A stretch of DNA of 64,000 nt. Origin: Branchiostoma floridae (Eukaryota; Chordata; Leptocardii; Amphioxiformes; Branchiostomatidae). The notes beneath the pieces are model-generated. The model was not told the DNA's origin, made no database searches, and saw nothing but the letters and a program-made list of their open reading frames with translations. Where the stretch lies: the NCBI RefSeq assembly GCF_000003815.2, contig NW_023365733.1, positions 1 to 64,000 of the forward strand. Reading direction: 5' to 3'. Made by a program: the position numbers and the translations under genes. The first letter of the stretch is position 1. Every line of letters begins with the position of its first letter. Below are positions 744-64,000 of this stretch, piece by piece.

Positions 744-3700
744 CGCCTTTAGACGGGAGCGACTGTCGCCCGTTCGCTCGCTGTGGCGTGGTGGACTTCC
801 TCGCTCCACTCTTCCGTCCTCTACCGGGCGCGCCTCCCGTCTTCCCTGCCAGCCAGTTGAGATCGCTGAAGATCTCCCGGAAGTGCTCACGATCGAAAGC
901 AGCCAGAGCTTCAAGAAACTTTTCAAACCTGTTGGGTTCCAAGAAATGATAACAATAAAGAAACACATGTCAGCTAATTTCTCATTTGCAAATCTGTCCA
1001 AATCACTTTTAAGTCCTTTGAAAATGATATAAAATGAAATAAAAACAATAAACACAAAGAAATAATCTTTCCAAGCTTCTGATTTTATACCATACCAATA
1101 CAAATCTGGTAATACACAGTGCCGTAAAGTAGGGCTAAAGTACGTCATTACTGCCATAGACTGAGTTGCCCTAAAGTACGTTCTTGCTGAGTTATTGGCT
1201 CTTAGATACCATACTTTGTAACTAGTTAGTGCCAATTGTAAACTATACAAGTCCTTACTAACCCAGCCACTTTAAGCAGCCTAGCTTTGGGATGTCTCCC
1301 ATAAATCATACAAATTTTATACAAAAAGGCCACCACAGTAGGCAGAAGGTTAATACAGTATACTTCTGGAGATTAAGTGCCCCTCCTTCATGGAGGTAGC
1401 CATCTAGTTAGTGCCAGTTGTAGACCATACAAGCCCTTATCAACCCAGCCACATTAGACAGCATAGCTTTAGGATGTTTCCCATAAATCAAAAAAATTTT
1501 ATACAAAAAGGCATTAGGCAGAAAGTTAGTACAGTATACCTCTGAAGGTTAAGTGTCCCTCCTTCATTGAGGTAACCATCCAGTGTGGGCATGACATTGA
1601 TGTAGGTCCGGTAGAGGAGAGGCAGTCCACTGTGGTGGATGTGGAGGTTGGGGAGGTGGGGGATGAAGTCATTCCCAACCAGGAAACCCATCAGGACCCA
1701 GTCATCGATGATTCTCTCAAGATCATAGCCAAACGACAACTTGTCCTAAAAAAAACACAAGTCTCTGATAAACATATCTTTAGAGTAGATATAATCCATA
1801 TAAGAAGCAGCATTTATCCCAACTCAAAGTCCAACGAAACACACACCACTGAGCTCCATTCTGAAATACTATTCAAAATATCTAAAAACAACAACAAAAA
1901 TTTGCTGTTCCATAACCAAGTATTGCTACGTTACACCCAGTACAATGTATTTACAGATTTGTGGATTGATCTAAAAGAAATGTTTTGATCAATACCATGT
2001 TTACACTTGTTGAAAGCAGATATCTTGATGATTCAGTTAATTGTTACAGTCCTGTATCCTACCAGGACTCTATCCTAGACATCTGTTTCATCACAGAAAC
2101 TGATGGTTTAAATTATGTGCTGTAGGGTACGTTGCAGGGCTCTAGCCAGCGTCCGTTTTTCCGTCAATTGGCGGAAATTTGCTGCGTGTGACGGAAAAAT
2201 TTTAAAACCAATCCGTCAACTTTGACGGACAAAAATTTGATAAAAGCACCTTGGTGGAAGCTACAGGCTGCTTGGGGACGCCGTCCACGGCCGTAAAAGC
2301 CACACACTGTTTGTTTTGCTATTGTTATGATTGTTGACAATGTGTGTCGGTGCCCTTTCGCATATGATAATCTCATTAAAACCATTACAAAACATTAAAA
2401 TTTTCAAGGTCTCAGTTCAGTCTCTCTAACTCCTGGAATAGTGTTTTCGCGACAATGGGAATTGGCTGACCGAAAAAAATGTCGAGCTGGCTAGAGCCCT
2501 GGTATGTTGAAAGGGAAGTCATATATTTGTAATACTTCAAGCAATAGTCAGGAATCTGAAACCTCACCTTTAACTCCTGGAACTCAAAATCCAGGTACTC
2601 CCTCATCAGGGACAGGTGAAGCAGGTGGAAGGTGATTTCTTCTGGGACTGAGATTCTACAAAGGACAGGTAGAAAAATCTTTAAAAAATGCCTACACATT
2701 TCAAGCATATGCACACCTATCATTAATGGCTTTAAGAACCAAGAGTTATAGTCATACCTTCACCAAATTATGGTAACCTTTAGTTTACAGCTGATTACAG
2801 TTTTCTCATTGATTATGGAAATATGGTCTTAGTGGTCTCTGCAACAAATCATCTTTATCAAATAACACATGTTATCCAAGGTATGCAAGACATGAAGTCT
2901 TTACCTTTTCTGAGACTTCTTTCCTCCAAACTTCACTTCCTCTCTCAGCAAGGAGAAATGTGGTTCATGAGAAGTTAGTCCTAACATGATCTGTCGAAAA
3001 CAAGAAAATGTGGCATTGGAATCAGTGTATAAGGTTCTTTACTTTAGACATGTGACTACATCAAAGTAACTACCTACGACACACACAATATGCATATTGT
3101 TTCTTTTCTTTCAAAAAAAGATATCATTTATGAGCCAGGATCATGCCCATTGAATGCTCATGTATGGCATTGTAATCAATGTATAAGGTTCTTTACTTTA
3201 GACATGTGCCTACATCAAAGTAACTACCTACGACACACACAATATGCATATTGTTTCTTTTCTTTCAAAAAAGGATATCATTTATGAGCCAGGATCATGC
3301 CCATTGAATGCTCATGTATGGCATTGTAATCAGTGTATAAGGTTCTTTACTTTAGACATGTGCCTACATCAAAGTAACTACCTACGACACACACAATATG
3401 CATATTGTTTCTTTTCTTTCAAAAAAGGATATCATTTATGAGCCAGGATCATGCCCATTGAATGCTCATGTATGGCATTGTAATCAGTGTATAAGGTTCT
3501 TTACTTTAGACATGTGACTACATCAAAGTAACTACCTACGACACACACAATATGCATATTGTTTCTTTTCTTTCAAAAAAGGATATCATTTATGAGCCAG
3601 GATCATGCCCATTGAATGCTCATGTATGGCATTGTAATCAGTGTATAAGGTTCTTTACTTTAGACATGTGCCTACATCAAAGTAACTACCTACGACACAC

Positions 3701-6700
3701 ACAATATGCATATTGTTTCTTTTCTTTCAAAAAAGGATATCATTTATGAGCCAGGATCATGCCCATTGAATGCTCATGTATGGCATTGTAATCAGTGTAT
3801 AAGGTTCTTTACTTTAGACATGTGCCTACATCAAAGTAACTACCTACGACACACACAAAATGCATATTGTTTCTTTTCTTTCAAAAAAGGATATCATTTA
3901 TGAGCCAGGATCATGCCCATTGAATGCTCATGTATGGCATTGTAATCAGTGTATAAGGTTCTTTACTTTAGACATGTGCCTACATCAAAGTAACTACCTA
4001 CTACACACACAATATGCATATTGTTTCTTTTCTTTCAAAAAAGGATATCATTTATGAGCCAGGATCATGCCCATTGAATGCTCATGTATGGCATTGTAAT
4101 CAGTGTATAAGGTTCTTTACTTTTGACATGTGACTACATCAAAGAAACTACCTACTACTCACACAATATGCATATTGTTTCTTTTCTTTCAAAAAAGCAA
4201 ATTATTTATGAGCCAGGATCATGCCCACTAAATGCTCCTGTGTACATAGTATACATAGTGGCAGTTTACCAGAAACAAACAAAACACACACTGACCAGAT
4301 CAGCGTCCAGGCCGTACAGACAGTGACGGGTGTTGGCATCGTACTCCGGCCGAGACTTCTCATAGCGGATGAACTCCATGATCTTGTGTTCACCCTCACC
4401 TGGAGACTGTTGGAGAGCAGAATGCATAATTATGTAATCTGTTACACCTGAAGAAATGTTTGTAATGCTAACATCACAAGATCTTTCCAGTAACTACTAG
4501 TATCTTCTTCAACACTGGCTTTTTCTATCAATTTGAAACCAAAAAAACTGTAATACATTTTTTGCTGTCCAAAGTAGCACACACATTTGTTGAACCTTGA
4601 AAAAAACTTTTAAAAATGAGCAGATCAGCAGACCAGGAACTTACTGGAGGACATCACTGCACTAGGAAATATTACCAAATTGAGCTTTGTGGGTGACTTG
4701 AGATGAATATGACAGACAAAGCTTCAAGAAATCTCATTGGTCACCATAATCACCTCATGACCAGACAGATAGACCCTGATGCCCTGCCACATCCTGTCAG
4801 TTGTGATCTTCTTGTTCACAAAGTACTTCAGCTGCTCGTTCAGGCGCACCATGAAATGAGTACCTGAAACATGTAGTGCAAAGTCAGAGGCCATCAGACA
4901 AAAATGTTTATTCTTGTTTTCTTCCGTTACCTGCAGCAGAACATAGAACATAAACCAGGTACATATAAACTAAAATACATATATAAGTCATGTATGGTGA
5001 GATTTTCCTTGTTCATGGTAGTCAATAATATCCACTACAGGTGGACAACATCCTGCCGTCAAACAATATCCAAAGGCCCACCTGTATTGGACAACACAAG
5101 TCATTGTCAAGCGGCAAGTGTTTCCTTGTACATGTGTGCCTTCTAGCAATTTATCTATGCCATGAACTGCAGATCATCTGACTATAAATAATGGACGCTG
5201 AGGTATATAACAAACCTATAAATTATAATCAGTATAAAACTACTAACCAGGAGTGATACAGTTGGAGTCGAATCTCTCCTCCGTGGGCAGAACCTCTCCC
5301 TTCTCCAGGGCCTTCTTCTGGCTTTCTTCAGCTTCACGAGCAGACCTGTTTTTTTCAAGGAAATTATTGGAAGTGTTGTGTTCACGATTCAAACTTTCAA
5401 ATCCCACATCTTTACGACCAACTTTCAAATCCCACATCTTTACGACTTAAAGCTTTAGTGTTACAAGCTAACTAAAGTTTATTTTTAGCACCAGTGTCAG
5501 ACAAGCTGGACATAAAAGTATATCTCCATTTAGTATTTTCATCTGCATCAGGGACTCATTTTCATTATGGCTGAGGAAATGCTTCAATAACCTGCTCTGC
5601 TTAAATATGACATTTATATTTTGTGTCATTGGGTAACAAATTAGGAACTTATTTGTATAATGAGAAACTTTATAGTAAAGGGAAACATCATTTCATTAAG
5701 GTATAAATCTGTAGAGCTCTAGTTACTGAATGAATTCAGTACACCAAGAGTCAGAGTCTCACCTAAACCTCCTGCCTCTCTGCTGGTTCATCTTAGCACG
5801 AGGAGCGACACCGTCAACTGCCATGAAGAAAACTTTCCTCGGCTTGATGATACGGAAAAGGAACTACAACAGAATAACAACAACAAATATAATCAGAATC
5901 AATCAGTAATTACCTCCTAGCTTTTACTTCCATTCAAGCCAAGATACATTAATAGATGTACATGTACATGCATTTTTATACTCCTACTTTAATACTATGG
6001 GGTGTCTGTGTGGCGCAACGGCTAGAGCGTTGGAATCAGAATCAGAAGGTCCTGAGTTCTAAACTCGCCATGCCCCTGCCCCCATGATGGTGGAGTGACG
6101 GCTAATCTGTCTAAAGGTGCCAAAAAACACCTACGGATTTGGTGTTGCCAGTGTGTCAACATCTGCACACTTGCCACTGAGACCCGTGAATTTTTTTTAT
6201 TTTTATTTTTTATACTCCTACTTAGCTGATTATGTGTTTGTAATGAGAGCCATTCCAACAAGTCTATTTTCATCCAAAGGAGGGACAGTTCCAGGAGAGG
6301 AAAATCTTTTTACAGACAATTACTAGTTGAAGTGATCTTGTTAAGTTTCAGAAATATGATTACGTCCATTGAACATAAACTAGTACTTTCTATATGATAA
6401 AAAGGATTTAAAATGTCCCAACATGAGCAAGGCATTGTTAGTCTCTTACACACCTCGATGTAGTGGAAAATGTCAGCAANNNNNNNNNNNNNNNNNNNNN
6501 NNNNNNNNNNNNNNNNNNNNNNNNNNNNNNNNNNNNNNNNNNNNNNNNNNNNNNNNNNNNNNNNNNNNNNNNNNNNNNNGGAACACTGGTGGATGATGCC
6601 GTTCATGTCCAAGTACAAGTTGTCAAACTCAGGAATCTGTGGACGAGAAAACACTTCTTTATATAATATTTCAAGTCTGTGTGATTCAATCATAATATTT

Positions 6701-17744: not shown

Positions 17745-19100
17745 CTGACATAATGTATACAACTTATATGTCGAAAAAGCTAAATTTGGTCTTCTCAGCC
17801 AAAATAAGCATTTTTCGCAAAAAAAATTAATATCGCGAAACGATGTCCAATTTTATTCAAACCAACATTGTTGGGTGCAGAATGGATCCCTGACATAATG
17901 TATACAACTTATATGTCGAAAAAGCTAAATTTGGTCTTCTCAGCCAAAATATGCATTTTTCGCCAAAAAAATTAATATCGCGAAACGATGTCCGATTTTA
18001 TTCAAACCAACATTGTTGGGTGCGGAATGGATCCCTGACATAATGTATACAACTTATATGTCGAAAAAGCTAAATTTGGTCTTCTCAGCCAAAATATGCA
18101 TTTTTCGCCAAAAAAATTAATATCGCGAAACGATGTCCGATTTTATTCAGACCAACATTGTTGGGTGCGGAATGGATCCCTAACATAATGTATACAACTT
18201 ATATGTCGAAAAAGCTAAATTTGGTCTTCTCAGCCAAAATATGCATTTTTCGCAAAAAAAATTAATATCGCGAAACGATGTCCGATTTTATTCAAACCAA
18301 CATTGTTGGGTGCGGAATGGATCCCTGACATAATGTATACAACTTATATGTCGAAAAAGCTAAATTTGGTCTTCTCAGCTAAAATAAGCATTTTTCGCAA
18401 AAAAAATTAATGTCGCGAAACGATGTCCAATTTTATTCAAACCAACATTGTTGGGTGCGGAATGGATCCCTGACATAATGTATACAACTTATATGTTGAA
18501 AAAGCTAAATTTGGTCTTCTCAGCCAAAATATGCATTTTTCGCCAAAAAAATTAATATCGCGAAACGATGTCCGATTTTATTCAGACCAACATTGTTGGG
18601 TGCGGAATGGATCCCTGACATAATGTATACAACTTATATGTCGAAAAAGCTAAATTTGGTCTTCTCAGCCAAAATATGCATTTTTCGCCAAAAAAATTAA
18701 TATCGCGAAACGATGTCCGATTTTATTCAGACCAACATTGTTGGGTGCGGAATGGATCCCTGACATAATNNNNNNNNNNNNNNNNNNNNNNNNNNNNNNN
18801 NNNNNNNNNNNNNNNNNNNNNNNNNNNNNNNNNNNNNNNNNNNNNNNNNNNNNNNNNNNNNNNNNNNNNCGATGTACGATTTTATTCAAAATAACATTAT
18901 TGGGTGCAGAATAGTTCCCCGACATCATATGTACAACTTATTTGTCAAAAAAGCTAAATTTGGTCTTCTGGGACAAAATCTGCATTATTCGCAAGAAAAT
19001 TAGATTTCATAAAACAATGTCCGATTTTCTTCAAACCAACCTTATTGGTTGCGGAATGGTTCCCTGACATAATGTACGCAACTTATTTGTCAAAAAAGCT
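17745..19100. repeat. 145-bp satellite array, right part
   Basis: TGACATAATG-type unit starts occur at 17746, 17891, 18036, 18181, 18326, 18471, 18616 and 18761, exactly 145 bp apart. After the gap at 18770 two more diverged units follow. No coding potential. Confidence 0.95.
18770..18869. other. Assembly gap (100 N) in the satellite
   Basis: Placeholder-sized gap. The satellite phase after it is about 14 bp off the 145-bp register, so the true length differs and units may be missing. Confidence 0.95.
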
Positions 19101-55700: not shown

Positions 55701-58700
55701 ATCTGTACACACCACCTTCATATTTGTCATACCCAATACGATGTCCTTGTAAACAGACTTGACCAACAGTTTTCTCCCACTGCCGCACCCTTACAGGTCC
55801 CTGAACCAGAGAATGGGTTCTTCTCGTGTTCTATCCCGACATCCTCTGCAGTGAACACCTGCCGACCAGCTACCACGATAGAATTGGAGTACGAAGTCGT
55901 CTGTGTGCTCCACTGTAACCCTGGTTACGATAGGCTGATCTATGCCGAGTACTCCTGTGGACATGACGGAAATTGGACCATTCCTTTCGATACAAGTATC
56001 AACGGGACTACACCTTGTTTAGGTACACGTAAACATCTTGCTTTCTCTCAAAGTTTGATATTGACTAGTCTGCCTACATTGACAGTTGTAAAAGTCAACA
56101 AATACAAATGTGTGATCATCATATACCAATAAAAGGTCGGGAACTTCTCTTACTAACTAGACTGATTAGATTGTTTTTATACCTCGCAGCTTTTGATATT
56201 TTTCTCATGTAGCATCATTGTCAAGTGACTCAAATTTCGACAAATACTGGAAGCTTTTGCAATATAATTTCTACATCTTTTGTTTAGTTATAGTGTACAC
56301 ATGTAGCACGACATATTGTTCTTATTTAATTTGAGGTGGTCAAAATCGTCGTATCGATGATTCTGTTATACTATTTTGTCAGCTCAGAGGACGAAAGTGT
56401 TTTTTTTTGTGCTACAGCTGCTGGTTCACAGTATAGTCACGTGGTATGAGGTGGTGTCCGTAGTTAGTTGAGTGGGCCATTCTCTCTCTCTCTCAAGGAT
56501 AGGGATGGGTCAGTTTCTATGTCTCTAGGTAGAGTGTTCCATTCTAAGATCGTGCGAGGAAAAGAGGACATTTCTCTATATCTGTTTTGCAGCAAAGGTT
56601 GACGTAACTTTGGTGTGGATGTCTTGTTTGTCCCCTTTGTATATTTGTTGTTAGGTACGTTTAGCAAAGTAACGGTGACGATTCCATGATACAGCTTGAA
56701 GAAGGTCGTGAGTCTGGCTTTCTTTCCAGCTCGTCGGTAGCGTCTCTAGCCCCGAGTCTTATCATATTCTAAACCTGACCATTGTATTTCAGCTGTGAAA
56801 TGTCCGGAACTGTCAAGCCCCTCGCACGGCAACATGACGTGCAACAGCGGCCAGGAATTCCGCTACCCGGAGGCCTGCAACTTCGTCTGTAACCGAGGCT
56901 ATAAACTGACGCACACAACCAGCCGTGTACGACATTGTCAGACTGATGCGACCTGGTCTGGTAACGACGCCGAATGTATTGGTATGTAGGGCGTCATATA
57001 CTCCCAGCCGTAATTAGTGTTAGAGTTAAAGTTTGAGAAATGCAAGATTCCAAGAAAATGCAGGATATTTCCTTTGGCCTTTAATTGGCCTTTTTTTCTA
57101 CTCGCACACAATGATATACCCTTAGGCTCGTCACTAAAGCGTCACCAAAATGAAATAAGATAAAGAAGATAAGATCGCCCGTGAGGCGTCTAAAAAAAGA
57201 AAATTTTCAAACACGTTACGTTGACTGAAGAGATGGATCAAGAGTGCCTACCACCACCACCCCACCCCCAAGTATGTAAACGAATTGACTTGTTCATAAA
57301 GATTTACGCTATCTGTTATGTTTACAGATCGCCAGGTATGTCTTATATTTTGTGGGGGCACAAAAAACATAAACTGAGTTTAGATTTGTTTTTTTCCGGT
57401 TGCAAGCACATAATTGGGCTGATGAGACAAGTTGTAAAGCAACTAACGTATCTGATGTTCGAATGGATAGTAGATTCCGTCTTTCTGATACCTTTGATTC
57501 ACTTCTGATGTCATGACAACATTCTACACCGCTATGTTTTAAGTACCTTCACCAAGTCTATTTCTAAGATAAGACCAACTATAAGAAAATAAGTCATTTA
57601 AGATCACATGGCAGTAAGAAGAAAAGGTAAACATTTCAAATTGCCCCCCTCCCCAGCGTATGCCAGCTGTGCAGCCCTGAAGGATGTTGGGTACACCACC
57701 TCTGGTAGTTACGTCATCGACCCAGACGGACCAGACTTCGGGGCGGAGCCCTTCTCTGTATATTGTGACTTTCCTAGAGGTAGGTAGATTAACCCTATCC
57801 AGACTGGGCTTTTTGGGCCTTCCCTGGACTGGGGGGGGGGGGGGTCATTCGACCCCTAAAAACTCACTAAGTTTGGTTGTTCTAGCACAAGCCGTTTGGG
57901 AGCTATAGGAGGTCAAAGTTGGCGCAGGCACATTTAGCCCCCCCCCCCCCCTCCAATCTGGATAGGGTTAAACAATGGCAACAGGTAAACTTTTCAACAA
58001 GCCGAATTCCTCAAAGATATACTCCCTTAAGAGGTCAAGGGATAATTTTACCAATAAGGTCTACGTCGCATTCCCTACCCGGGGCCCCGCCATTACTTGC
58101 CTGTAACACAGATTTGTGACTTCTCTGCTATTCAATTAAGTCTAATTCGAGAAGATAGGCTTAAATGCATATTTCAGAAATGCTTACAAATGGTTGCCAT
58201 ATGCTTGAAAATGAATGCTCTGATGTTTTTAAAAGAGATGGATCTAGAGTTTTTGTCGAATAGCAACGGAAGAGATTAGCAAGTACATTTAGAGTGTCTT
58301 TGTTTTCAAGCAAGAAGGTTTCATTGATAATGACGTGTTATCATCTTGATAAGACCGTCTTTCTTCAGGCAACGTTGACTAATGAAATCGCACATCTGGT
58401 CAGGTACCACGGTGATCAGCCATGACAGTGAGAGCCGCACCAGTGTAAGTCCTCGATGCAATCCAGCGGGGTGCTACAAAAGGAATAGAGTACTTTGGCC
58501 TGCCACAGGAGCGGACGGTTCTTGCGACGGACCAGTGTGACCTGGACGCGTTTCCCAGTCGTCTCATGCCCCGCATGCCGGCTGGTTAGGTCAAGTTTAA
58601 TTGTGGATAGTTTCCGAGACTGTGGAGACCACCTCGGTGTGTGAACTTTGTTTGTATGTCTGGACTTGTCTGAGATACGGACGTTTTTCAACCGCCGAAC

Positions 58701-61700
58701 CCCTCCATCAGTCTCCCCTCGGTCACGCGGGGCCCCCACCCCGCCTGGCTCACGCGTGGTAGGACCGGGCTGCGGTTTACCTCCGGATCGATCCACCAGA
58801 CCTTCGAGGACGCTTCTCTCGCTCAAAGTATTAGTCTCACAGGTCAGTGTCGCATTCTACACGTATTCTGCTTGGTTAATTTCAAGTCTTGATTCCACTG
58901 AAACCTGTAAAGTGTGTCGCCACCACCCCTTAAACTAAGGGTGGCATCTCCCAGCTGTCAAGGCAGGATCCCCTCCCCTTGTTAGTAGGGTGAGGCACGC
59001 GGACTCGGCTGTCAAGACCCCTCGTTAGCGGGGCGAAGCACGCGGACGCACGGTCAGGCTAGCCCCATCTGGGAGCGGTTTCTATAGTAACCGCCAAGTG
59101 TCTGGTTTTTCCCGCCAAACACTAAGTCTGAAGATGCCTACCGTGTCTAAATTCACCAGGCAGCGCAGCGTTAAGGTTACATTTCTCCAGGTCGAAGATG
59201 CCCAGTTTAGTGATGCCATTGAACTGTTGAAAAACATGGGGTAAACCCACTGACCGACATCGTGGGAATACAACGGAGAACAAGGGGAGTATGTGAGATC
59301 ACCTTCAAGTCCCAATCATCCCTCGCCAAAGTGAGCCCTCGACTTACCTCTGACAGTGCAGTTGATGTCGAGTTGTACGGCTCCGGGTTGACAGTGATAA
59401 CAGCCTTTGGCATACCTGTTGAAATGGATGATAACTTTATCCGCCATCGGCTCAGAGAGTTTGGTACTGTAGAGGACAGCCGTTTCCTTACCTATGCGAA
59501 CCAAGGTTTCCCTGAAATCCTGACCGGTACTAGGCAGTATCGTATGAAGATCACAAAGCACATCCCGAATTCTATCCGTATCGGCAGTGAACTTGTGACC
59601 TTTAGGTACAACGGACAGCCGAGGATCTGTCACCGCTGTGGTAGTGACGAGCATTTTGTCGCCGCTTGTACAGCCGTTAAGTGCACCCGCTGTTTTGAGA
59701 TTGGTCACTTAGCCACCGATTGTGACCAAGACATCAAATGTAACATCTGTGGAGGGGAAGGTCACTCTGCAAGGTCGTGCCAACTAAGCTTTGCAAACAG
59801 GCTGAACGTCACCACTAGCTGGACCAAGATCACCCCTACACAGCAGAACGACAAGAGTGTAAAGAAACCAGTTACACCTGGTGAAAACGAGTATACCAGT
59901 CAGAGTTCAGTACAGGACAACACACCGACAGTCCCTAAGGTGGTGGTGAGTACGGCTGAGCCCCAAAACGGAGTGGTGAGTACGCCTGAGCCCCCAAACG
60001 GAGTGGTGAGTACGCCTGAGTCCCCAAACGGGGTGGTGAGTACGCCTGAGTCCCAAGACGGGGGTAAAGAGCCGCCAGACGGTGAGACTGACATGGAGGA
60101 TGCAGAGGACTTGGTCACCAGCCAAACTAACGGCCTCCTTCTCAAATTAGACGACTCAGGGGATATCAGCGCCGAATACGAAACAGACGAAGAGAGTGTC
60201 AACAAACGACCTCTCCCTTCAAGCCAGAGCGACTCCGATGACTCGGACACCTCTGCAAGACGAACCGGAAAGGCAACTGGTAAAAAGATAAAGAAAGACG
60301 CAGATGCAAGTCCTAGCGAGTCTGATGACTCGGACACCTCTGCAAGACGAAACGGCAGGGCAGTTGAAAAAAAGTCTAAAAAAGATGCAGACGAGAAGGG
60401 GACAATTAAAACGCTCCCTTCTCCTGGTAAAGCCTTAGTGTCTTACAAGACCAAAGTTGTCCCTTCATCTTCCTTACGGAAGAAAGGTAGGAAGGGTCCT
60501 AAGTAACTGACATTATGTTCGACAATCCTTTGACAACGATTTGGTTATTTCTCCTCGTCGCTTTGTCATTGCGAACAGGTACAGACATTGTAACAACCGG
60601 ATCCACCTATTTTAACCCACCTATGGATCCCACACAACAAAATATCAGACACCCTGATACTGCTTCAGACATCACGGAACTGTTGCTGAACCCAAACTCG
60701 AAAAACTTACTGACCATGGTACATCTCAATGCTCGAAGTTTACTACCCAAAATTGAAGAACTCAGATCTTTGGTATCCACGATGAAGTTCAGTGTTCTAT
60801 GCGTAACTGAGACTTGGCTAAGTAGTGAAATTGTTGACCGTGATATCGAACTGGAAGGGTACCAGGTGTACCGCAAAGACAGGAACAGACATGGAGGTGG
60901 CGTCATGATGTATGTCAGTGATTCTCTGTACACGACAAGACGTGGTGATCTTGAGAATGACGAGATAGAATCTATCTGGTGTGATGTGACCAAAGCCAAT
61001 ACCAATCTCTTAATCAATTGTTCATATCGCCCGCCATCAGCAGATGACACATTCTTTGACCTATTCGAAACTCAGATTCAGAAAGCAACGGACCAAGCAC
61101 ATGCTGTTAAAGTGATCCTCGGAGATTTCAATGCAAAGAACAGCAACTGGCTTAACAGCAACACAACTGACAACCCGGGACGTCAACTTGACAACATTTT
61201 CATGAACCATGGTCTAGAACAGGTGCTTCACGAACCGACCCGTGGGAGGAACTTGTTGGACCTGATTGTGACCTCCCATCCAGTAATGTGTCACCAAACG
61301 GGCACCTTAGCTCCCCTTGGTGACTCTGATCATCTTGCAACAGCAACTGCGCTCAACCTAAAGGCAAACCACCACAGCGGAAAACGCCTCGTCTGGTTGT
61401 ATAGCAAGGCGAACATTGAAACCCTTCACCAACACATTGCAGCCGCCCCCTGGGATATCAACCACGTTTTTGACTCCATGGACGACATCTGGGATTCATG
61501 GTACAACATGTTCATTGCCATATGCAAACAACACATCCCTCACAAGTTTGTCTCTACCACTAGGACAGCAAAGCCCTGGATACATTCTAACAAAGAGATC
61601 AAAACAGCTATCCGTAGAAAACACCGCCTAAACTCCAGAGCGAAACGGATAAATACTGAGGTAACGTGGGCCACCTACAGAAGACAAAGAAATCTAGTGA

Positions 61701-64000
61701 CTGCACTCACAAGAAGGGCCGAGTCAGCTTACATTGAGGAACTCGTGAATGATGTGGAGACTGGCAACACCAGGCGATTCTTCACATATGCTAAATCTGC
61801 TCTGGGAAATACCTCAACGGGTATCCCAGCTCTTAAAGTCGGTTCAGCCATACTGGAGACTCCGGAAGAAAAGGCTAATGCCCTGAACAATTTCTTCATA
61901 AACCAGACTGATCTTCCCGCTAGGAATGACCCAGCTCCAACATTCCACCCGACAACTGTCCCGGGAACAGTCTTGGATTCTGTTCAGCTGTCAGTTGAGG
62001 AAGTACGACAACAACTAAGTTCTCTGAAAGTCGGAAAGTCATGTGGACCCGACGAAATATCCCCCAGGCTCTTACGTCTAGTAGCAGATCCGATCTCAGC
62101 TCCTCTAACCTGCCTGTATAACAAATCTCTCCAACTCGGGCAGGTACCTTCGGAATGGAAAAAAGCTAACGTAACCCCCATTCACAAAGCCGGTAGCCGC
62201 CACCTCTCAAACAACTACAGGCCTATATCACTACTGAGCGCAGTGTCAAAGGTTATGGAAACCCTGGTGAACAAGCGACTAATTGCCCATATAAATCCGA
62301 TACTGACTGACCACCAAAGCGGATTTAGACCACTTGACAACACCGCACTGCAGCTGTGCCGACTAATGGAGGAATGGACCGACGCCATGGATAGAGGACA
62401 AATTGTAGGCTGCGTATTTCTTGACCTCCGAAAGGCCTTTGACAAGGTCTGGCACGCAGGACTTCTTGCTAAATTAAAAGCATACGGGATTAATGGCCCC
62501 ATGCTCAACTGGTTCACCAGCTATCTCTCCGATAGACGACAACGTGTCGTCATTCAGGGAGTAGGCTCCGAATGGAAGTCCCCATTAGCCGGAGTGCCGC
62601 AAGGATCCGTCCTCGGACCGACACTTTTTATACTTTACATCAACGATCTGGCCACTAGCCTTACACAGTGTCAAACGAACCTATTTGCCGACGATACATC
62701 ACTGTCTTCTTGCCACCGCTCTATCGACAGCGTAGTCGCATCACTAAACAGTGAGTTGAGCTCTGTGTCTACCTGGCTTTCAAAATGGAAACTAGAGGCT
62801 AATATAGACAAGTGCAAAGTCATGTTTATTACGTCTCGCGCCCTTCCTCGATCGATTCCTCCTGTGATCCTAGGAGGAACTGTTTTACAGGTTGTCACCA
62901 GTCATAAACACCTAGGCGTCACTGTCACAAATACCCTGTCCTGGTCAACACACGTAGAGATCATCTCAACAAAGGCTAGGCGATCATCCGGACTACTATG
63001 TGCTCTACGGAAGAAGATTCCGAAGAATCTACTTCTCAGGCTATACACTATGATCACAAGACCAAGTCTAGAGTATGCTGACATTGTCTGGGCCGGCCTT
63101 ACCAAACGTGACCAAAAGATCCTGGAATCTGTCCAGTACCAAACCACCAGGATTATCAGTGGCCACTTCGGACTACCGTACCCTTCATACGAACGTCTCT
63201 ACTCCGAACTATCCCTACCGTCACTACAGTACCGACGCAAGTTCCACACGGCAGTAACCATGTACAAATTGTTGAATGGACGTTGCCCCCCACACCTGCA
63301 AAGTCTGCTTCCTCATGCACGAGCGTCTGCTATCGACTCCCGCTACCCCCTAAGAAACAGTGAACATTTGACTACTCCTGCATACAAGACTACACGATCT
63401 CAGAGAACATTTGTGAGCAGAGCAACTTCCCTCTGGAACTCTCTCCCCAGTAGTACCCGTACAGCTAGCACCATCAGCTCCTTCAAAAATAGACTGCGCA
63501 CGTCGCCTGATAACAAATACTCTGTAAACGCTTGATAAAGCATATCATAGTTTCCTAATAGTCATTGTATTACTGATAGTAGCTATTGATGGCAACAACT
63601 ACTGTTCCTACTGAACGATCTGCACTGTAGAACGTATACATTATAGCGTTCAAACGTGTTAATCGCTGACTAACTAGCCTTATATAGATAACCGAGTAAT
63701 ACCATTTGTATCATAGACTGACATTCTAGATCGTACGACTGCTAGTCAAGCTGTAAACACGGATCACCTCTGTAGTCAAAGTTACATGTATCGTTAATAC
63801 TGTTGTATATTGTATACTATTGTATAACGTATATTGTAATGTTACCAGGGCTAGCCCTTGATAATAGCCTCAGGCTAGTTGGGCAGCCCTGGCTGTATTT
63901 CTCATGATTATACAGCCGAATAAATCAAATCAAATCAAATCAAACTATCAGGCCACACTGGAGCAGCTCAGCGCCCTGGCCGCCGTGTCTATCTCCTGCA
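46041..64000 (+). CDS. Type II membrane protein with multiple sushi, EGF and fibrinogen-like domains, partial
   Basis: Predicted exons: 46041-46129, 46290-46374, 46514-46745, 46964-47122, 47759-48241, 48623-48684, 49238-49385, 50899-50922, 51058-51255 (or -51354), 51544-51599, 53519-53684, 54064-54228, 54390-54454, 54663-54826, 55069-55228, 55797-56022, 56793-56981, 57657-57779, 58404-about 58497, then after a LINE about 63946-64000. Phases join throughout. Order: acidic cytoplasmic segment, one transmembrane helix, stalk, helical region, about eight sushi domains with one EGF, then a fibrinogen-like/Caspr-like domain. Sushi and fibrinogen-like domains usually mediate adhesion, complement-like binding or carbohydrate recognition; the ligand is unknown. 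The start codon is not certain and the C-terminus lies beyond the window. I do not recognise a named orthologue. The last domain is interrupted by the LINE, so this allele may be damaged. Confidence 0.8.
46964..48241 (+). CDS. Sushi gene: stalk, first sushi-like domain and helical segment
   Basis: Exon 46964-47122 encodes a Pro-rich stalk (VYTTPEPVPAWVQQFSPEMQ). Exon 47759-48241 starts FCGNTSLPQSLPDLRHGNFS with IAKCHVGYQ and FCNRGRWAP, which is sushi-like. It then carries about 100 residues without Cys (DYLGIPDEMYADVAYNILVK, DFDMMRQLLIWVGPSIEDK) predicted helical and unlike sushi. The closing Cys is supplied by the next exon. The helical part is not a domain I recognise. Confidence 0.7.
48623..49385 (+). 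CDS. Sushi gene: split sushi domain 2
   Basis: Exon 48623-48684 ends VCKTVVCGGDFG and exon 49238-49385 continues NLAHGQVNSS, VVCERGYLPRHP, TCTVSGQWDKPALC. Together they make a complete sushi domain split by a phase-0 intron just after its first Cys. The CERGY and SGQW motifs are standard sushi marks. Confidence 0.8.
50550..50863. mobile_element. hAT-like MITE in a sushi-gene intron
   Basis: CAGGGTTGGACAAGT at the left end and ACTTGTCCAACCCTG at the right end are inverted repeats of hAT type. Internal ACTTGCCCGA motifs recur. The flanking 8-mers GTGCCTAT and GCTTATGT do not match well, so the target duplication is not confirmed. 314 bp. Confidence 0.7.
50899..51354 (+). CDS. Sushi gene: 24-nt exon and sushi domain 3
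   Basis: A tiny exon (50899-50922, EQTASAYG) fits the phases between flanking exons. Exon 51058 onward encodes TCSPPEDPPHGSYLCQGH, DSCDVICNVGYLPE, LGCSWTGNWTT. Two phase-1 donors are possible: GTTTTG at 51256 and GTTAGA at 51355. The longer form adds a hydrophobic segment (FGIIQIIFSCIGLLILI). The small exon is the less certain part. Confidence 0.65.
51544..53684 (+). CDS. Sushi gene: split sushi domain 4
   Basis: Exon 51544-51599 (LTCVIADCGNIS) and exon 53519-53684 (TPTHGDVNCTGTTYGETC, LTCHDGYEHL, SWSGEPEC) form one sushi domain split by a phase-0 intron after the first Cys. The intron between them holds a piggyBac-type MITE. Confidence 0.8.
52155..53134. mobile_element. piggyBac-type MITE with GGGGTCC hairpins
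   Basis: TTAA flanks both ends (52155-52158 and 53131-53134). The termini CCCTCAAACACCCGA and TCGGGTGCTTGAGGG are inverted repeats with one mismatch. Near both ends a GGGGTCC-(A/G)TTTGGACCCC palindrome occurs, with another at about 52349-52370. 972 bp between the TTAA sites, no transposase, so non-autonomous. Confidence 0.85.
54064..54228 (+). CDS. Sushi gene: unsplit sushi domain 5
   Basis: A single exon encodes VSCGAPPEFPNTALQCTSG, RVTCADGYEGTYLQNVTC and STGNWSLQAG. It is bounded by phase-1 introns. Its last Cys comes from the next exon (DLFCQRKDC). Confidence 0.85.
54390..54826 (+). CDS. Sushi gene: split sushi domain 6
   Basis: Exon 54390-54454 (LFCQRKDCGDLS) and exon 54663-54826 (IPAHGSLTCSGTKFQDSC, LTCEPGYKAADE, CMASGQWNSTPR) form a sushi domain split by a phase-0 intron. 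The phase-2 end joins the EGF exon. Confidence 0.85.
55069..55228 (+). CDS. Sushi gene: EGF-like exon
   Basis: It encodes SDYCQLGLHDCHPEHGVCSM, then FSCRCRVGTVGDGRNC, the six-Cys EGF pattern. It lacks an obvious DxxE calcium-binding start. It ends RTCCPDFP, which supplies the first Cys of the next sushi domain before a phase-0 intron. Confidence 0.85.
55256..55640. repeat. Simple-sequence-rich intron
   Basis: (CA)n at about 55262-55280, then AT-rich sequence with CATAT and AGCATAAAT repeats up to 55640. No exon is seen in this part. Confidence 0.6.
55797..56022 (+). CDS. Sushi gene: sushi domain 7
   Basis: It encodes VPEPENGFFSCSIPTSS, VVCVLHCNPGYDRL, YSCGHDGNWT and TPCLG. It is a sushi domain whose first Cys lies in the preceding EGF exon. 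A phase-1 end follows at 56022. Confidence 0.85.
56793..56981 (+). CDS. Sushi gene: unsplit sushi domain 8
   Basis: A single exon with phase-1 borders encodes VKCPELSSPSHGNMTCNSG, NFVCNRGYKLTH and CQTDATWSGNDAECIG, a complete sushi domain. Confidence 0.9.
57657..58497 (+). CDS. Sushi gene: fibrinogen-like/Caspr-like domain, first two exons
   Basis: Exon 57657-57779 encodes SCAALKDVGYTTSGSYVIDP and EPFSVYCDFPRG, the start of a fibrinogen-related domain. Exon 58404 onward encodes TTVISHDSESRTSVSPRC and then NPAGCYKRNRVL, resembling the region of contactin-associated proteins that ends in a YxAxxEQL block. The reading breaks at about 58498 where the LINE begins. Its continuation YQATLEQLSALAAVSISC is found only after the LINE. 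Confidence 0.75.
57789..57971. mobile_element. Small piggyBac-type MITE
   Basis: TTAA at 57789-57792 and 57968-57971 surround CCCTATCCAGACTGG and CCAATCTGGATAGGG, an imperfect inverted repeat. It carries long G (about 57829-57842) and C (about 57940-57951) runs. 175 bp, in the intron between the two fibrinogen-like exons. Confidence 0.75.
59134..60506 (+). CDS. LINE ORF1: gag-like protein with three CCHC knuckles, frameshifted near its start
   Basis: Nucleic-acid-binding protein of the retrotransposon particle. The main frame runs to a stop at 60504-60506. Three CX2CX4HX4C knuckles follow one another: CHRCGSDEHFVAAC, CTRCFEIGHLATDC, CNICGGEGHSARSC (about 59627-59785). The natural start is probably the ATG at 59134, whose frame encodes MPTVSKFTRQRSVKV and then stops at 59242 after ATGGGG. 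The main frame takes over from there, so one base seems to be missing, most likely in the G run 59238-59241. The C-terminal part is low-complexity, with four 30-bp repeats (VVSTPEPPNG-like, 59942-60061) and a duplicated SDDSDTSARR block. Gag-type knuckles fit Jockey/I-like elements better than classical CR1 ORF1. Confidence 0.88.
60515..63535 (+). CDS. LINE ORF2: APE endonuclease plus reverse transcriptase, intact (1006 aa)
   Basis: Nicks target DNA and reverse-transcribes the element RNA from the nick. Endonuclease motifs: LNARSLLPKIEEL (about residue 71), VTETWLS, ILGDFNAKNSNW (Gly203-Asn206) and LGDSDHL (Asp272, His273). Reverse transcriptase motifs: KVGKSCGPDEISP, NNYRPISLLSAVSKVMETL, HQSGFRPLDNTALQL, VFLDLRKAFDKVWH, GVPQGSVLGPTLFILYINDL and the catalytic FADD (Asp726, Asp727). 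A C-terminal domain ends with TFVSRATSLWNSLPSSTR, common in Jockey/CR1-group elements. It starts eight bases after the ORF1 stop, so translation by reinitiation is likely. No stop or frameshift is seen. Confidence 0.95.
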   Translation: MFDNPLTTIWLFLLVALSLRTGTDIVTTGSTYFNPPMDPTQQNIRHPDTASDITELLLNPNSKNLLTMVHLNARSLLPKIEELRSLVSTMKFSVLCVTETWLSSEIVDRDIELEGYQVYRKDRNRHGGGVMMYVSDSLYTTRRGDLENDEIESIWCDVTKANTNLLINCSYRPPSADDTFFDLFETQIQKATDQAHAVKVILGDFNAKNSNWLNSNTTDNPGRQLDNIFMNHGLEQVLHEPTRGRNLLDLIVTSHPVMCHQTGTLAPLGDSDHLATATALNLKANHHSGKRLVWLYSKANIETLHQHIAAAPWDINHVFDSMDDIWDSWYNMFIAICKQHIPHKFVSTTRTAKPWIHSNKEIKTAIRRKHRLNSRAKRINTEVTWATYRRQRNLVTALTRRAESAYIEELVNDVETGNTRRFFTYAKSALGNTSTGIPALKVGSAILETPEEKANALNNFFINQTDLPARNDPAPTFHPTTVPGTVLDSVQLSVEEVRQQLSSLKVGKSCGPDEISPRLLRLVADPISAPLTCLYNKSLQLGQVPSEWKKANVTPIHKAGSRHLSNNYRPISLLSAVSKVMETLVNKRLIAHINPILTDHQSGFRPLDNTALQLCRLMEEWTDAMDRGQIVGCVFLDLRKAFDKVWHAGLLAKLKAYGINGPMLNWFTSYLSDRRQRVVIQGVGSEWKSPLAGVPQGSVLGPTLFILYINDLATSLTQCQTNLFADDTSLSSCHRSIDSVVASLNSELSSVSTWLSKWKLEANIDKCKVMFITSRALPRSIPPVILGGTVLQVVTSHKHLGVTVTNTLSWSTHVEIISTKARRSSGLLCALRKKIPKNLLLRLYTMITRPSLEYADIVWAGLTKRDQKILESVQYQTTRIISGHFGLPYPSYERLYSELSLPSLQYRRKFHTAVTMYKLLNGRCPPHLQSLLPHARASAIDSRYPLRNSEHLTTPAYKTTRSQRTFVSRATSLWNSLPSSTRTASTISSFKNRLRTSPDNKYSVNA
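63845..63944 (+). other. LINE 3' end: nested hairpins and (AAATC)n tail
   Basis: CCAGGGCT (63845-63852) pairs with AGCCCTGG (63885-63892). Inside them, TAGCCT (63865-63870) pairs with AGGCTA (63872-63877). AGGGCTAGCCCT (63847-63858) is itself a perfect palindrome. The tail of about five AAATC units follows. Such 3' structures are used by the reverse transcriptase to recognise its own RNA in related elements. Confidence 0.7.
63946..64000 (+). CDS. Sushi gene: continuation of the interrupted fibrinogen-like exon
   Basis: It reads YQATLEQLSALAAVSISC, matching the (Y)xAxLEQLxAL block of Caspr-type fibrinogen-like domains, directly after the LINE tail. It runs off the window edge. A CAG at 63949-63951 could also act as a splice acceptor. 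Confidence 0.7.

Follow-up and report, generated by a model that had tools for sequence, protein, structure and literature searches.

The host gene and its split exon

The stretch of DNA analysed here (the window) comprises bases 1-64000 of C175, a contig of 157,448 bases from Branchiostoma floridae, and was compared with a genome of 513 Mb in 431 contigs. Its right end contains the final exons of a modular gene, the structure of which was drawn from paralogous loci on contigs C5 and C8 and from a second, inverted copy on C175 itself (142-154 kb, hereafter C175b). Exon E1 (57657..57779, forward strand, YASCAALKDVG...CDFPR) matches the paralogous exons on C5, C8 and C175b; its left edge was inferred from an acceptor at 57656, and it ends in phase 1 at the donor GAG|GTAGGT at 57780. 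The next exon, E2, is found in two parts on the same strand. The certain part of the left half (58404..58485; TTVISHDSESRTSVSPRCNPAGCYKR) is delimited by DNA matches to three paralogs (87, 84 and 81% identity) that end at 58484-58485. The right half (63945..64000, continuing to C175:64014) reads YQATLEQLSAL..., in agreement with the original prediction, which had the host frame resuming with these residues after the tail of an intervening LINE. This half ends in phase 0 with a weak donor of its own, ACG|GTGTTT at 64015. E3 starts at 64717, also in phase 0, and E4, at 65023, closes the gene with a stop after EGMNH. E1, E3 and E4, which surround the split exon, are open frames, and both halves of E2 fit a single exon.

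With the two halves joined, the domain is identified as COLFI (PF01410) with a Pfam E-value of 4.7e-6 and a score of 26.5 bits against the gathering score of 26.2; the C8 paralog scores 29.3 bits and the C5 paralog 23.1, the latter under the cut-off of 26.2. The earlier label of a fibrinogen-like domain accordingly gives way to COLFI, a Pfam search with the joined domain having detected no Fibrinogen_C match at E<=0.1; a PDB search with the same domain yielded no match at E<=0.001. Upstream of this domain are sushi-type exons (16.5 bits, under the cut-off of 20.7) and others that, as a tentative label of our own, we call EGF-type. The dN/dS values obtained by the NG86 method against three paralogs are 0.44-0.51 (E4 of C175b left out), which indicates that the gene family is under constraint; for the right half of E2 compared with C5 the ratio exceeds 1, a value resting on eight differences only. 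The regions 44000-65300 and 142000-157448 of C175 align as inverted pieces with approximately 70-88% DNA identity, and this pattern suggests that the gene in the window and C175b are the products of an old inverted duplication. Elsewhere in the window, tandem arrays with units of 154 bp and 145 bp (97-98% matches) occupy positions 3011-4241 and 17745-18769, respectively.

A LINE within a coding exon

The sequence that separates the two halves of E2 (58498..63944, 5447 bp, with the 5' edge placed to within a few bases) lies on the same strand as the host gene. It contains an ORF2 of 1010 codons from stop to stop (60503..63535, +), for which Pfam identifies an endonuclease (PF03372, E-value 2.6e-16) and a reverse transcriptase (PF00078, E-value 2.5e-38), and the open part of an ORF1 (59223..60506, +) that matches zf-CCHC in two stretches and includes three CCHC knuckles recognizable by eye; upstream of this open part, ORF1 is broken by a frameshift. 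Comparison of the element with itself (E<=1e-10) gives only an internal repeat of 85 bp and no terminal repeats, and none of the 13 inverted pairs of 14 or more nucleotides joins its ends. Copies are dispersed over several contigs, some with later 5' starts. The element, with its endonuclease and reverse transcriptase in ORF2, variable 5' ends and no LTRs, is a non-LTR retrotransposon (LINE). Its tail, AATAAATCAAATCAAATCAAATCAAA, ends at 63944, a (TCAAA)n tail being present in other copies as well, and no RNase H domain was detected in the LINE by Pfam at E<=0.1. A tandem-repeat 3' tail in place of poly(A), a zinc-knuckle ORF1 and the lack of RNase H are marks of the CR1/L2 group, and by its layout (a 3' tail of short tandem repeats, a zinc-knuckle ORF1 and no RNase H) the LINE is CR1/L2-like. 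In the copies on C15 (L037) and C286 (L036), ORF1 is a frame of 492 codons and both long frames are open, which suggests recent activity of the family.

Read in the sense direction, the LINE has a single AATAAA (63919..63924). Just before this signal and the (TCAAA)n tail, two hairpins (63847-63890 and 63891-63917, +) are predicted; the computed fold of 63830-63944 has an energy of -36.4 kcal/mol (z -3.93), which is equalled by none of 200 shuffled sequences, and the hairpins are possibly an element recognized by the reverse transcriptase. Within ORF1, a 30-bp tandem repeat in four copies (59943-60061) includes a donor-like GTGAGT in each copy.

The junctions were delineated by genome searches. 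The left-junction search gives 10 matches, namely the window itself, three host paralogs that end at 58484-58485 and the 5' ends of six LINE copies that begin at 58499-58567; alignments of long copies set the 5' edge of the LINE at approximately 58499. At the right junction, among the best 40 of 1141 candidates, the 39 besides the window stop between 63922 and 63948, in the vicinity of the LINE tail. Given where the paralog and LINE matches end at the two junctions, the flanks are host sequence, and they enclose a dispersed repeat whose limits, give or take a few bases, are 58498 and 63944. The LINE is separated from the last base matched by paralogs by 12 bases (58486..58497, +, reading NRVL) that match no paralog well: the C5 paralog has the same length with unlike sequence, and at this place C175b, C8, C17, C9 and C11 each have two codons fewer than the window. 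When 58497 is joined to 63945, the resulting frame is open (KRNRVLCYQATL) and fits host codons. These 12 bases may thus be either lineage-specific host codons or junction filler, and the previously proposed host end at about 58497 holds for the open reading, which extends that far, but not for the homology to the paralogs, which stops at 58485. On the other side, C175b has the host sequence GGTCAACTATC where the window has (TCAAA)nCTATC, so that microhomology may have led to an overlap between the LINE tail and host bases. Inspection by eye of the window LINE and of five other long copies revealed no target-site duplication.

A six-frame search of the genome with the joined exon, in which 21 candidates were scored, reveals 8 matches at E<=0.001, which correspond to the two halves in the window and to exons of C5, C175b, C8, C17, C9 and C11. 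All six of the latter, which come from the same genome, continue across the site as a single open frame free of stops, and none of them contains an older intron at this position. The uninterrupted state of all six paralogs marks this as an insertion rather than an old intron, and the insertion of a LINE into one coding exon, as originally proposed, is real; the intron without a LINE that would have contradicted this proposal is absent from the six paralogs.

In the comparison with five other long copies, 20 substitutions in 5163 comparable columns (0.39%) are private to the LINE in the window, as are five indel columns; the window LINE diverges by 0.92-1.27% from four of these copies and by 2.27% from the fifth. 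PMC12500494 gives an amphioxus heterozygosity of 3.2-4.2%. On the assumption that mutation in the LINE resembles that elsewhere in the genome, a private divergence of 0.39% set against this range implies that the insertion is more recent than the split of a typical allele pair, and the insertion probably still segregates. The second haplotype with an empty exon, which was suggested for comparison at the outset, was not recovered from the assembly: with the exon as the query, the best host match is a paralog (87%), and with a query of 1.9 kb of host DNA from downstream the top host match among the best 40 of 401 candidates is likewise a paralog (88%). The intact frames of the two exon halves were considered as a sign of rescue and rejected as such because the insertion is too young; at 0.39% divergence, the expected number of mutations in 164 bases is below one, so that intact halves are uninformative in this respect.

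Splice sites and the fate of the transcript

The interpretation that we favor, and for which our confidence is fairly high, is that a young LINE resides in exon 2, that the full-length product of this allele is lost and that any rescue would most readily proceed from the Val-Ser GTAAGT to the acceptor at 64716. In this reading, exon 2, which encodes part of the C-terminal COLFI-type domain of a modular gene with sushi and EGF modules, received a nearly full-length CR1/L2-like LINE in one allele or lineage of the lancelet that was sequenced, target-primed reverse transcription being the presumed mechanism. Most transcripts of this allele would then either meet the first in-frame stop on reading from E2 into the LINE (TGA, 58538..58540, +) or end at the poly(A) signal of the LINE, and in both cases the full-length product would be lost. 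Loss of the product of this allele is the most likely outcome and the default expectation, whereas in-frame splice rescue of this copy is possible; its likeliest route would join the pre-existing Val-Ser GTAAGT to the acceptor of E3 at 64716, in preference to the CAG at 63951.

Splice sites were scored with human-type weights, so that the scores are rough, and ranked among all scored sites of the window (3718 GTs and 3472 AGs). The donor-like GTAAGT that encodes Val-Ser (58445..58450, +, phase 0) scores 2.7, a value reached by 86 of the 3718 GTs (top 2.3%), and the donor of E2 itself at 64015 scores -0.9. The same motif is found as GTAAGT in the C5 paralog, where this alternative donor, with its GT at about C5:2377192, scores 5.5 and the natural one -0.2, and as GTGAGT in C175b, which implies that the donor predates the LINE and was neither made nor selected by the insertion. 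By chance, GTRAGT occurs in random stretches of 94 bases in 725 of 20000 draws from the window and in 1788 of 20000 draws from LINE coding sequence. Joining the donor at 58445 to the acceptor at 63951, 63915 or 64716 keeps the frame in all three cases.

Rescue by joining 58444 to 64717 would use the natural E3 acceptor and yield a shorter domain, possibly as an isoform older than the LINE. As exon 2 ends in phase 0, the product stays in frame; the acceptor at 64716 scores 5.2 (reached by 36 of 3472 AGs), and the donor motif is common to two close paralogs, surpassing the natural donor in C5. This acceptor is a better rescue candidate than that at 63951 given that the frame is kept and no new acceptor is needed. 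However, this join would remove a conserved part of the domain, 123 bases out of the 164 in exon 2, and the poly(A) signal of the LINE is located between donor and acceptor; that this rescue operates appears rather unlikely. A broader version, in which the older in-frame donor (Val-Ser GTRAGT) yields an isoform with exon 2 shortened and spliced to exon 3, would mean that the gene was pre-adapted to a LINE landing in the latter half of this exon, and that the element was intron-like from its landing and segregates almost neutrally. We hold this to be quite unlikely.

The original prediction had the LINE and about 20 host residues removed as a new intron by splicing of 58444 to 63952. The underlying observations are accurate: GTAAGT at 58445-58450 and CAG at 63949-63951 are both present, the AGT|GCC joint is in frame, and the host sequence dropped amounts to 60 bases, or exactly 20 codons. 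The donor, as noted, is in the top 2.3% of GTs. The acceptor (63949..63951, +) scores -3.4, which is reached by 1318 of 3472 AGs, and is preceded by (TCAAA)n, an A-rich lead with few pyrimidines. The natural exon-2 acceptors are low too (-1.9 in the window and -3.6 in C5, the latter as low as this CAG; -3.6 to 1.2 across the family, with donors from -0.9 to 4.3, compared to 2.7/-3.4 for the candidate pair), so that the low score leaves 63951 possible. Nevertheless, the donor is older than the insertion and the two cysteines of RCNPAGC would disappear, making this route very unlikely. The part of the earlier interpretation that stands is the LINE in a coding exon; the new intron created by splice rescue is a conjecture, the donor being pre-existing and the acceptor weak and common.

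An acceptor inside the LINE, the in-frame CAG at 63913..63915 (+), would allow joining of 58444 to 63916 with the addition of ten codons from the LINE tail. It scores 3.6 (109 of 3472 AGs are as good) and the frame is open through PNKSNQIKSNYQ, but the AG is located within the stem of the second predicted stable hairpin and AATAAA begins at 63919, three bases past the acceptor, so that this route is highly improbable. Highly doubtful, too, is an assembly artefact, that is, a chimeric assembly across a 5.4-kb repeat whose copies reach 99% identity: long near-identical LINE copies do exist elsewhere in the genome and C175 is small, with gaps elsewhere, but the flanks are complementary parts of one exon in the order E1...E3-E4, which makes a chance join hardly likely, and C175 32647-114684 is free of N runs of 20 or longer.

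Skipping of E2 was rejected as a means of rescue: E1, ending in phase 1, does not fit the phase-0 start of E3, so that the frame shifts and an early stop follows. SOS-type excision was rejected as well, given that the SOS splicing pathway requires inverted repeats and the LINE has no terminal ones.

Relation to other exonic transposons

Removal of exonic transposons by splicing has been encountered before. In 1990, Fridell reportedly found that the retrotransposon 412 in an exon of the Drosophila vermilion gene is spliced from the precursor RNA. The lancelet locus is similar in that a retroelement lies within a coding exon and could be removed by splicing; it differs in that the element is a LINE and that removal, found in vermilion, exists here only on paper. 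Rushforth and Anderson (in 1996) are said to have described the splicing of Tc1 from mutant pre-mRNAs in C. elegans, and Giroux (in 1994) a maize Ds that makes an intron. There, too, a transposon located in an exon is removed by splicing, but Tc1 and Ds are DNA transposons for which splicing was reportedly found in RNA, whereas removal of the lancelet LINE is a prediction from DNA. These fly, worm and maize reports are cited in PMC2586383, and a spliced exonic transposon is not new in kind.

PMC2586383 also outlines the intronization hypothesis, under which a stop-bearing exonic segment is removed in frame via latent splice sites. Rescue of the lancelet exon would likewise consist of in-frame removal of a stop-bearing exonic segment by latent sites; however, the hypothesis concerns native exon sequence, and here the segment is an inserted LINE. 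In SOS splicing, as outlined in PMC13247085, DNA transposons are removed from animal mRNAs. Removal at the RNA level would heal the exon in both situations, but SOS splicing concerns DNA transposons and the lancelet element is a LINE without terminal inverted repeats.

A limited literature search retrieved no report of this lancelet insertion. If the LINE is spliced, the locus would represent an intron gain caught near birth, with a nearly full-length mobile element still recognizable. With the very high allelic diversity of this animal, empty and filled alleles could be compared.
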